Positions 346 through 3,674 of a stretch of 24,027 bases of DNA are shown one piece after another; the stretch's first letter is position 1, and each line of letters starts with the position of its first letter. Below the pieces are notes generated by a model. It made no database searches. It saw nothing but the letters and a program-made list of their open reading frames with translations, and was not told the DNA's origin. The stretch comes from a virus, in IMG/VR virus record IMGVR_UViG_3300021960_000498, positions 1 through 24,027 of that record; one strand, 5' to 3'. The translations under genes were made by a program, and so were the position numbers.

Positions 346-373
346 ATTATAACGATTAATAAAAATTCTGCAA
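346..373 (-). promoter_or_regulatory. Sigma70-like promoter for the left-edge gene
   Basis: On the minus strand there is a perfect TATAAT (346-351). A weak -35, TTGCAG (368-373), precedes it at a 16-base spacing. Transcription would start near 339, leaving a leader of about 30 bases with the AGGAAA site before the ATG at 310. A host-type consensus suggests use of host RNA polymerase. Confidence 0.55.
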
Positions 374-448
374 AAAAATTGTGAGATACCCCCCATATAG
401 TATTACGCACCGGGGGGGGAAGGTATGCCCTTTTTTTTTACCCCACAT
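356..448 (-). CDS. Possible 30-codon micro-ORF crossing homopolymer runs
   Basis: The frame starts MWGKKKGHTFPPRC and runs 30 codons. A strong AAGGAG (about 454-459) lies 5 bases before the ATG (446-448), a better site than many real genes here have, and a TATAAC hexamer (467-472) could serve as a -10. The frame crosses A9 (431-439) and C8 (412-419, given as G on the plus strand). If one C were missing, the peptide would end after 14 residues (...FPPGA). The second half could therefore be a sequencing or slippage artefact. The 3' end overlaps the next promoter. Function is unknown, and it may be a leader peptide. Confidence is low because of its length. Confidence 0.35.
   Translation of the reverse strand: MWGKKKGHTFPPRCVILYGGYLTIFLQNFY
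389..444. repeat. Homopolymer-rich intergenic tract (C6, G8, T9, C4)
   Basis: The plus strand carries C6 at 389-394, G8 at 412-419, T9 at 431-439 and C4 at 441-444 within 60 bases of an otherwise AT-rich genome. C6 and G8 can pair around a loop of 17 bases, and ATACC (386-390) has an inverted copy GGTAT (422-426). It may form a hairpin between the initiator gene and the left-edge gene. It is also prone to slippage and miscounting. Confidence 0.5.
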
Positions 449-502: not shown

Positions 503-1387
503 TTACCTTATCCTCTTGCTGTTAGAAATCCTCTTGATTATTCTTTGTAGCTCTTCCCGTTTATCAATGGGAGGTGGTCTCTTAAAGAATGCGTGTTCAA
601 AGAATACAATGCTTTTAGGACTATCCTTATGGTTATTCCTTCTCCAGATAAGTACATCCTTAATCTTACTGATAGCTTTATCTGGATCTAATCCTTTATC
701 TTTAATCCAGGACTGTACAATTTCTAGTTGTTTCTGATTGTATTGTAAATGTTGACCGAATATCTCTTCGGTTAATCTTCTAAACTCATTCATTACATAT
801 TTACCTTTAAGGAATATATCATTGTTAAGTTTGTTGTTATGTAGTCCTTCTGAATGAATATCTACATATTCCTTGGAGTGAATATCTACCTTATCCCCCT
901 CTTTTACTGTAGGCTTTTCCTCTGTCTTAGTATTCCTTCTGAGTGAATACTTAGTAGTCTTTCCCATCTTCGGTCCCTTCGGTACTTCTGGTTTCTCTTC
1001 GTAAGATCTATCAAGGTCTGTAGCTGTTGCAGCAGCATCCTCCTCGCTGACATCTGGATCAAAGACCATGAAGTATTTGTTACCCTTCAGCCCAGGATGT
1101 TTCTTAGCATATTTAATATATCCCATCTCAATCAGTTTACGAATATGTTTACTGACTGTACTCTGAGACTTAATTCCTAAGACCTTAGCAATAGTGATTT
1201 GGTTGGGCCAACAGACACCTTGCCTTGAGGTATAATTACCTAAAGCACATAGAACCATGAAAGTTCTGGGGTAGGTTTTAAATCTAATATCAGCCACAGC
1301 TCGTTGTGGAATGACACAGAAATGCCCAGGTGTTCTGCCGGTCCCGTAGTCTACTTTATCCTTTTTATTTTTCGGAGCAGTAGCCAT
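503..1387 (-). CDS. Winged-HTH replication initiator-like protein
   Basis: The protein has 294 residues. Residues about 25-110 form a helix-turn-helix/winged-helix domain of the type in phage and plasmid initiators: a helix with RTFMVLCALGNYTSRQG, then WPNQITIAKVLGIKSQSTVSK as the likely recognition region, then HIRKLIEMGYI and a beta wing. A polar linker (about 113-190) contains the repeat VDIHS twice. A helical C-terminal domain (about 195-294) could bind replisome partners. The ATG overlaps the end of the DnaA-like gene by 23 bases and has no good Shine-Dalgarno, so translation is probably coupled. The linker DNA holds three iteron-like repeats followed by AT-rich sequence, as in lambda O. 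The replication role is inferred from domain architecture and context; a transcription factor is the alternative. Confidence 0.7.
   Translation of the reverse strand: MATAPKNKKDKVDYGTGRTPGHFCVIPQRAVADIRFKTYPRTFMVLCALGNYTSRQGVCWPNQITIAKVLGIKSQSTVSKHIRKLIEMGYIKYAKKHPGLKGNKYFMVFDPDVSEEDAAATATDLDRSYEEKPEVPKGPKMGKTTKYSLRRNTKTEEKPTVKEGDKVDIHSKEYVDIHSEGLHNNKLNNDIFLKGKYVMNEFRRLTEEIFGQHLQYNQKQLEIVQSWIKDKGLDPDKAISKIKDVLIWRRNNHKDSPKSIVFFEHAFFKRPPPIDKREELQRIIKRISNSKRIR
781..949. other. Candidate replication origin inside the initiator-like gene
   Basis: Three related repeats (842-949) lie immediately beside a very AT-rich stretch: 781-840 has 13 G/C in 60 bases. All of this falls in the linker-coding part of the winged-HTH gene. 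This is the lambda arrangement, in which initiator-binding iterons and an adjacent melting region sit within the O gene. The call rests on architecture alone. Confidence 0.4.
842..949 (-). repeat. Three iteron-like repeats (consensus TATTCACTCAGAAGGAATA)
   Basis: The copies, read on the minus strand, lie at 931-949 (TATTCACTCAGAAGGAATA), 867-884 (TATTCACTCCAAGGAATA) and 842-860 (TATTCATTCAGAAGGACTA). The first and third differ at two positions; the middle copy has a one-base gap and a further mismatch. Each copy is an imperfect dyad with TATTC and GAATA (or GACTA) arms about 8-9 bases apart. The two left copies are about 25 bases apart and encode the repeated VDIHS; the third is 64 bases away and in a different codon phase. 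Similarity across reading phases argues for selection on the DNA rather than the peptide. Confidence 0.55.
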
Positions 1388-2431: not shown

Positions 2432-2442
2432 GTTTTCTCCTT

Positions 2443-2490
2443 GTTAAAATATATCTTGTAAATATATCAAAAATATCTATATTATTAGGT
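2443..2490. promoter_or_regulatory. Divergent promoter region between replication and early operons
   Basis: On the plus strand, TTGTAA (2456-2461) and TATATT (2478-2483) lie 16 bases apart, with a start expected near 2490. That leaves the ATG at 2528, not 2489 or 2498, as the usable start. On the minus strand an extended -10, TGATATATT (2461-2469), would drive the ribbon-helix-helix gene, with its start near 2455. The two core elements overlap, so a protein bound here could affect both directions. Confidence 0.45.
2448..2477 (+). repeat. Direct repeats AATATATC, candidate operator
   Basis: AATATATC occurs at 2448-2455 and 2461-2468, 13 bases apart, and a shorter AAATATC follows at 2471-2477. 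The copies lie within both predicted promoters. Arc/CopG/MetJ proteins bind short tandem half-sites, so these are the best operator candidates for the adjacent regulator. AT-rich DNA makes chance repeats likelier. Confidence 0.4.
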
Positions 2491-2527
2491 GTACAATATG
2501 AGAACAATAACAATGAAAGGAAATACA

Positions 2528-2850: not shown

Positions 2851-3033
2851 GCTAAGTTCACAAAAAAACAATCAGACTTAAAAGACTACATGATCAAGAA
2901 TGATTTGATCTTGGAAGATGTAATGGAAGTTGTTTTGTTAGATCTTAATTGGATGAACCCAATATCTATCAATCAGCTTTGTGATGAGATGAAAAAAAAG
3001 TTAACCAATAAATGTTTGAAGGAGGCTGCATAA
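2848..3033 (+). CDS. Unknown 61-residue early protein
   Basis: This is a small, charged, probably all-helical protein starting MAKFTKKQSDLKDYMIKND. It has one acidic/hydrophobic helix (ILEDVMEVVLLDLNW) and a Lys-rich C-terminus that again ends in KEAA. Its ATG shares an A with the preceding stop codon, and its own stop overlaps the recombinase start in the same way. It therefore sits as a complete cassette between two identical 17-base junctions. I do not recognise a family. Expression is likely strong given the AAGGAGG site. Confidence 0.75.
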   Translation: MAKFTKKQSDLKDYMIKNDLILEDVMEVVLLDLNWMNPISINQLCDEMKKKLTNKCLKEAA

Positions 3034-3035
3034 TG
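3019..3035 (+). repeat. 17-base stop/start junction AAGGAGGCTGCATAATG, copy 2
   Basis: All 17 bases are identical to those at 2834-2850. Here they end the 61-residue gene and start the serine recombinase. Both copies also encode the same C-terminal KEAA. Confidence 0.85.
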
Positions 3036-3674
3036 AACATAGTTGCTTTAGTTAGAGTTAGTACAGATAAGCAAGAAGTTAATAATCAAAAATTTGCTAT
3101 CGAAAAAAAATACAATGATGCATCAATCACCTGGTTCGAGGAGCCGGGTGTTTCTGGAGCTAAGAAGTTTCAGAACAGACCAGTTCTACAAGATGCAATT
3201 AGAACAGCTAAGAAGTTAAGATGTCCATTAGTTGTTTATTCATTATCAAGACTTGGTCGTACATACGAAGTTGGTCAGTTCTTAGAGACTACTAACATTC
3301 AAGTTGATGTATTAGATACTCCAAACTTAGATGATGCAATCGCTGGGTTCCATGTTGCAATCAATAGACTTGAAAGAATTAATATTTCAAATCGTACCAA
3401 GGCAGCACTAACAAGATTAAAAGCAGAAGGTAAATTGTTAGGCAATCGTACTAACTTAGATGTAGTTAGAGTTAGAGGTCATGAAACTTCTAAGGCTAAT
3501 GCAAATCAGTACGCAAAAAATATTTCAGAAATTATTTCTGGCATCAGAGCAACGGGCATCAATACATTGTCTGGTTTAGCTAATGCCTTGAATGATCGTG
3601 GTGTTAAAACTTACCAGGACAAAGTTTGGTACCCGACAACAGTAAAAAATGTCCTAGAAAGAGTGGAGGTATAA
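3033..3674 (+). CDS. Serine recombinase, resolvase/invertase size
   Basis: The protein has 213 residues. The N-terminal catalytic domain has R8 and nucleophile S10 in VALVRVSTDKQ, Q19, R49, and R73/R76 in SLSRLGR. A long E-helix-like segment (about 105-135) leads to a C-terminal DNA-binding domain with ISGIRATGINTLSGLANALN and a final KVWYPTTVKNVL. The aspartate before RLGR in gamma-delta resolvase is serine here. The start at 3033 is set by TAATG coupling and AAGGAGG; the frame also opens at 3012. It lacks the large recombinase and zinc-ribbon domains of large serine integrases, so resolution, inversion or another recombination role is likelier than integration. No recombination site was recognised. 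Confidence 0.85.
   Translation: MNIVALVRVSTDKQEVNNQKFAIEKKYNDASITWFEEPGVSGAKKFQNRPVLQDAIRTAKKLRCPLVVYSLSRLGRTYEVGQFLETTNIQVDVLDTPNLDDAIAGFHVAINRLERINISNRTKAALTRLKAEGKLLGNRTNLDVVRVRGHETSKANANQYAKNISEIISGIRATGINTLSGLANALNDRGVKTYQDKVWYPTTVKNVLERVEV

Follow-up and report, generated by a model that had tools for sequence, protein, structure and literature searches.

A candidate replication origin carried within the coding sequence of an initiator-like gene in uncultured marine phages

The window analyzed here is the whole 24,027-nucleotide stretch of IMG/VR record IMGVR_UViG_3300021960_000498, a 24 kb phage fragment with podovirus-like tail genes. Its nozzle protein has its closest cultured match in Methylophilales phage MEP301 (51% identity), with SAR11 phages next. 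Behind a divergent promoter region (2432-2497), a minus-strand operon contains, in order, a small, weakly Arc-like gene (2213-2431, 72 amino acids; PHROGs Arc-like repressor at E about 0.02 only), a DUF3310 gene (1870-2250), a gene for a stand-alone DnaA domain IV, the DnaA-box-binding domain (1365-1943, 192 amino acids), and a winged helix-turn-helix (wHTH) gene encoding 294 amino acids (503-1387; hereafter the initiator gene). An Rfam scan of the window gave no match at the gathering cut-offs. A serine recombinase of the resolvase/invertase family is encoded on the plus strand at 3012-3674. MEP301 and relatives encode one too, and no tyrosine integrase was seen.

The initiator gene was defined by its open reading frame, its PHROGs and Pfam matches, and an AlphaFold2 model. 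The best PHROGs matches of the protein were replication initiators, several of them O-like (1.4e-12 to 8.6e-10); the O-like clusters matched its wHTH part (best, 8.6e-10), and the Pfam match was HTH_36 (2e-11), in agreement with the original prediction of an initiator-like wHTH gene. The model comprises a winged helix (about residues 28-113; pLDDT about 75-80; LexA/CRP-like, Z about 7), a linker without structure (residues 126-189), and a helical C-terminal domain, which gave a pLDDT of 83 when modeled alone. The best VIA match of the C-terminal domain was a weak one to a DnaD-like protein (2zc2_A; Z 5.7, rmsd 2.5, 64 residues), which makes this domain possibly DnaD-like. A weak DnaD_N match was found in 17 of 20 family members. 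Foldseek with the C-terminal domain found no match under E 2, and a PDB sequence search with the family profile gave no match. Fold searches with the whole protein and the C-terminal domain returned generic wHTH folds and the weak DnaD-like fold only, and the absence of other folds from them is no evidence. The Pfam lambda O family (Phage_rep_O) was absent from the 12 families matched by the window protein up to E 0.1 and from the 25 families listed for 20 relatives.

Three repeats had been predicted in the linker-coding part of this gene, and their sequences and positions proved right: iteron 1 (TATTCACTCAGAAGGAATA) at 931-949, iteron 2 (TATTCACTCCAAGGAATA) at 867-884, and iteron 3 (TATTCATTCAGAAGGACTA) at 842-860, all on the minus strand. 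Iteron 3 abuts a CATAACAACAAACTTAACAAT element (821-841, minus strand), which can be written CATAAC-N9-AACAAT or CATAACAAC-N6-AACAAT (hereafter the AACA element), and it is the iterons and this element that encode the disordered residues 126-189. Two features had escaped the original prediction, namely that the copies are imperfect palindromes (TATTC...GAATA) and that the AACA element, which is frozen among relatives, separates the last repeat from the remaining AT-rich DNA. The 60-base stretch with 13 G/C was located by sequence and composition steps at 781-840, as had been described; it is a candidate DNA unwinding element, and the AACA element is likely the start of this candidate melting region.

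The repeats were also said to keep their likeness in more than one codon phase, and the three copies in the window do occupy two different phases. The accompanying worry, that repeats may arise by chance in a genome this AT-rich, was fair for the window alone: 1-2% of shuffles of the window gene reached the observed triple (6 of 300 synonymous-codon and 3 of 300 dinucleotide shuffles), and the best pair was matched in 14 of 300 and 3 of 300, respectively. A 19-mer allowing up to 3 mismatches had 2 matches in the whole window and 0 in 100 shuffles, although this pattern was derived from the same sequence. The window by itself thus goes only modestly beyond chance, and the case rests on relatives.

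In scans of IMG/VR, a homologue was present on about 90 contigs. Of these, 85 differ in sequence, with protein identity as low as about 46-47%, and 39 genes less than 95% identical to one another formed the non-redundant set for site and codon analysis. No homologue was found in cultured phages by tblastn at 1e-5, and none in bacterial genomes, host or prophage. MEP301, the closest cultured phage by tail protein, has a wHTH gene (gp55) without an iteron-like array, and the wHTH genes of HTVC203P and HTVC010P have only short or weak repeats. Every clade of the relatives showed the same array. Along the coding strand, iteron 1, whose distance varies and which some clades lack, precedes iteron 2; iteron 3 follows 6 or 5 bases later and runs directly into CATAAC-N9-AACAAT. 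The iterons are imperfect palindromes of 17-19 bp with TATTC/GAATA or TATGC/(A,G)CATA arms. Iteron 2 was found in 39 of 39 non-redundant relatives, and iteron 3 was recognizable in all 39 with 0-2 arm mismatches. An iteron 1 equivalent lies 75-108 bases from the AACA element in most clades and is apparently missing in L014/15, L047/55, L064/66, and L095/96. Persistence and concerted change of the sites across the 85 distinct genes make chance a practically negligible explanation and contradict, at this level, the worry that held for the window. An extra TATTC..GAATA palindrome occurs downstream of the initiator gene in the Lys-type L031/L041 group, about 596 bases past the start of the AACA element; it may be a further site or a coincidence of the coding sequence.

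Another explanation is that selection acts on the linker peptides (VDIHSKEYVDIHSEG) and that the DNA repeats merely follow. Two of the three copies in the window indeed encode similar peptides. However, the linker is predicted to be disordered, and codon phases differ both within a genome and between genomes at the equivalent site: iteron 2 keeps its right end in place, but the distance from the start of its left arm to the AACA element is 42, 43, or 44 bases. The arm therefore falls in all three codon phases and the encoded peptides differ (YAPSEY, IHSKEY, and FTQSAY), while the DNA arm is kept. Synonymous sites are frozen as well. When 250 windows were ranked by synonymous conservation in the 39 genes, the first 12 all lay at iterons 2-3 and the AACA element, and synonymous codon identity peaks at the latter with the gene's highest value (0.97 observed versus 0.61 expected). 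Two Asn positions use AAC in 39/39 and 38/39 genomes, and a third uses AAT in all 35 genomes that retain Asn. Furthermore, the sites change in concert: among 13 clade representatives, arms were more alike within a genome than to the other sites of other genomes (11.2 versus 9.8 of 14 arm bases), a difference reached in 0 of 5000 permutations. These results, and the covariation of the arms with one residue in the helix that reads DNA (see below), leave selection on the peptides exceedingly improbable. The proposed check, that the repeats should persist while the linker diverges, came out in favor of the sites, and conservation across the family indicates that the repeats almost certainly function at the DNA level.

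The residue in question is residue 80, encoded in the window as Lys at 1148-1150 (minus strand) in the helix QSTVSKHIRKL, of which QSTVSKHI aligns with recognition helices. Lys is present at this position in 24 of the 39 genes and Arg in 15. The right arm of iteron 3 is NCAT in 15/15 Arg80 and 0/24 Lys80 genomes, and residue 80 predicts the iteron 3 arm base in 39/39, with Lys accompanying GAATA-like arms and Arg accompanying NCATA. Among 273 variable columns, it was the only perfect predictor outside the linker; the runner-up columns lie within the linker and are themselves encoded by the iterons. On a tree built with the recognition helix and linker left out, residue 80 changed four times, a number with which a sign test cannot reach 0.05. 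One of the switches is seen in L054/L057: their clade is well supported, the rest of it is Lys-type, and in these two the iterons switched together with residue 80. The correspondence has some looseness in the arms themselves: the iteron 3 right arms of Lys80 genomes are imperfect (GACTA and others), and at iteron 2 the simple arm rule is broken in 3 of 39 genomes, the Lys80 exceptions being L034 and L087, both with GCATA arms. A contact between Arg and the G of TATGC is chemically reasonable. Taken as covariation between gene and site, these data suggest that the encoded protein very likely recognizes the sites.

A packaging or partition site could by chance have come to lie in the initiator gene near terminase genes, and terminase-like genes do follow within about 1-1.5 kb downstream in relatives. 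We regard this as very unlikely, given that the covariation is with the initiator's own recognition helix and that a better packaging candidate exists in the strongly conserved non-coding element between the initiator and terminase genes. This element directly follows the initiator gene (window 369-424, minus strand). It occupies the same position in 18 clade representatives, and MEP301 (L084 33800-34060) has a weak counterpart there. It consists of a C- or G-run, a GCGTA-like motif, TATATAT, GGGGGG, and TATCTCACAATTTTTTTGCA; the first run is G and not C in L031 and L087, so a hairpin is not the feature that is kept. It lies ahead of SSB-like and terminase genes and may serve in packaging, as a cos site, or as another element of the origin.

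We also found that sites of the same kind are present at some promoters. In 647 kb of sequence from relatives, exact TATGC-N7..9-GCATA was found 7 times outside the linker; each copy stands where the initiator operon begins, and each of these genomes is of the Arg80 type. The first gene after the palindrome is DUF3310 in L055 and L064, methyltransferase-like in L047, another small gene in L095, and the initiator gene itself in L050, L059, and L061. In L047, the DNA-methyltransferase-like ORF (1530-2633) separates the palindrome from the initiator gene; relatives carry DUF3310 at this place, or no gene at all. Initiators of iteron plasmids also act at an inverted repeat at their own promoter, and the positions of the palindrome fit autoregulation by the initiator. 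Four of the palindrome-bearing genomes (L047, L055, L064, and L095) have no DnaA-like gene directly upstream of the initiator gene, whereas genomes with the DnaA-like gene lack the palindrome; these also possess the small Arc-like gene, and their promoter carries another motif. We considered the palindrome as a substitute for the DnaA-like gene and rejected this, since it is confounded with loss of the Arc-like gene. The divergent promoter (window 2432-2497, and in relatives) bears ATATATTT[AG]CAAGATATAT in genomes having the Arc-like gene, and this motif is likely the operator of the Arc-like protein.

The promoter palindromes raise the alternative that the internal sites serve regulation only, that is, that the wHTH protein reads them as an internal operator for autorepression or as a roadblock, with the origin elsewhere. 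In its favor are the identical palindrome, a likely operator, at the operon promoter of seven Arg-type genomes, the fact that wHTH folds are mostly repressors, and the GC-skew switch at the divergent promoter in most genomes. By contrast, the promoter is without a site in most clades while the internal sites are always present; the frozen AACA and AT-rich element beside iteron 3 and the fixed spacing would be useless to an operator; and the PHROGs matches are replication initiators. On balance, we consider regulation without an origin function unlikely.

The skew itself was a poor guide. A GC-skew switch at the repeats had been proposed as a check, but the local skew minimum of the window lies near 2.0-2.5 kb, at the divergent promoter and about 1.6 kb from the repeats, and in most relatives the minimum is 0.8-2.5 kb upstream of the iterons; in L055 and L061 it falls 17 bases past iteron 3, the last repeat. 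GC skew follows the direction of transcription here and hence does not decide the position of the origin. We therefore discarded it as proof of an origin, the signal being confounded with divergent transcription.

Repeat persistence, synonymous freezing, concerted arm change, helix covariation, the restriction of palindromes outside the linker to initiator-operon heads in Arg80 genomes, the predicted fold of the protein, and the PHROGs matches together support the lambda-style origin candidate of the original prediction, and we think it likely that the three near-palindromic sites and the adjoining AT-rich element inside the initiator gene are the phage replication origin. The computations show that the sites exist, are conserved as DNA, change in concert, and are linked to the recognition helix; from this we infer binding, dimers, melting, helicase recruitment, and origin activity as follows. 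The winged-HTH domain would bind each 17-19 bp site, probably as a dimer with one recognition helix per arm, and residue 80 would read base 2 of the inner arm (GAATA or NCATA). Once assembled, the complex may strain and open the adjoining A/C-rich, AT-rich DNA, after which the C-terminal domain would bring the replicative helicase. With its sites in the DNA that encodes the disordered linker, the gene would carry its own origin, as lambda O does. No lambda P-like helicase loader was recognized among the ORFs, or among the scanned proteins (part of the ORFs), of this incomplete 24 kb fragment.

In lambda, four imperfect inverted repeats, each 18-19 bp long, lie with an AT-rich tract of 39 bp in the linker-coding part of the O gene (PMC7466680, PMC6022878). 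The minimal O site is a 19 bp imperfect inverted repeat, and two iterons with the AT-rich tract are enough for unwinding (PMC7466680); the O protein, 299 amino acids with a flexible linker, sits as a dimer on each iteron (PMC6022878). The layout of the present locus agrees feature by feature with that of ori-lambda, as found in lambdoid and Stx phages, in having repeated sites within the initiator coding sequence, in a row beside an AT-rich tract (17-19 bp with TATKC..GMATA/ACATA arms here), and in that the two tract-adjacent repeats, the number sufficient for lambda unwinding, are always kept. The proteins are likewise near-equal in length (294 versus 299 amino acids) and share an N-terminal DNA-binding domain, a flexible iteron-encoded linker, and a C-terminal partner domain. 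Unlike lambda and lambdoid phages, which have four to six iterons, the present genomes have three or two, unevenly spaced and different in sequence; in addition, the protein has only generic wHTH Pfam matches and possibly a DnaD-like C-terminal domain, a DnaA-domain-IV gene lies upstream in place of a recognized P gene, and an iteron-like palindrome stands at the operon promoter in some clades. As the protein falls outside the Pfam lambda O family, we call the system lambda-like in its working but a separate family by sequence.

In plasmids, the iterons are located apart from the initiator gene and are bound by monomers, whereas the sites described here are palindromic and inside the gene. Neither RepA_N nor Rep_3 appeared when the window protein was compared with Pfam up to E 0.1. 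What is shared with iteron plasmids (such as P1, F, R6K, and RK2; for iterons in plasmids, see PMC5043065) is initiator-specific repeats beside an AT-rich region, sometimes with DnaA boxes. The weak DnaD_N match and the weak fold match of the C-terminal domain recall Firmicute DnaD and DnaD-like phage replication proteins, but both are below the level that shows kinship. DnaD is not known to carry an origin in its own gene. We found no description of an origin of this type in marine phages in open-access text.

Skew and homology give little guidance to origins, and for this reason those of uncultured marine phages are hardly ever known. In this family, codon-level constraint lets an origin be read, and natural variation at a single residue does the same for the site specificity of its initiator. 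If the reading is true, the lambda layout exists in a protein family that is unrecognized by Pfam's lambda O model, ready initiator-origin pairs are available for the study of winged-helix DNA reading and replicon incompatibility, and the approach offers a recipe for locating other hidden origins. Such an origin also prompts one to ask what role an ATPase-less DnaA plays next to it.

The DnaA-domain-IV gene was found immediately upstream of the initiator gene in nearly all relatives. In the window, the 192-residue product matched Bac_DnaA_C at residues 85-148 (7.6e-15), and Pfam gave no match to the AAA+ ATPase domain III of DnaA. The window contains no exact DnaA box TTATNCACA, and words within one mismatch of it were fewer than by chance (18 versus 40.8, sd 6.1), so that canonical DnaA boxes were rejected as part of the window's origin. 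Exact boxes (TGTGGATAA) do occur in the initiator genes of L014, L064, L066, L072, L075, L095, and L096, 85-106 bases before the AACA element; L095 and L096 each carry a pair, spaced by 12 bases. About 1 of the 39 genes would be expected to have an exact box and 7 do, so this is a clade-level feature.

A two-part origin system can be proposed from these patterns, though only tentatively, and we hold it to be possible rather than probable. In clades with the ATPase-less DnaA domain IV protein, that protein would serve the origin or the promoter; in the L047/L055/L064 group and L095, which have no such gene, the initiator would take over its own promoter through the iteron-like palindrome. Canonical DnaA boxes beside the iterons in L064 and L095 might point to recruitment of host DnaA, and the single Lys/Arg switch in the recognition helix, at residue 80, may divide these phages into origin compatibility groups. 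Stand-alone DnaA domain IV proteins are also encoded by the SAR11 phages HTVC203P and HTVC010P, the copy in the latter (L086 27001-27558, minus strand) being annotated as hypothetical.
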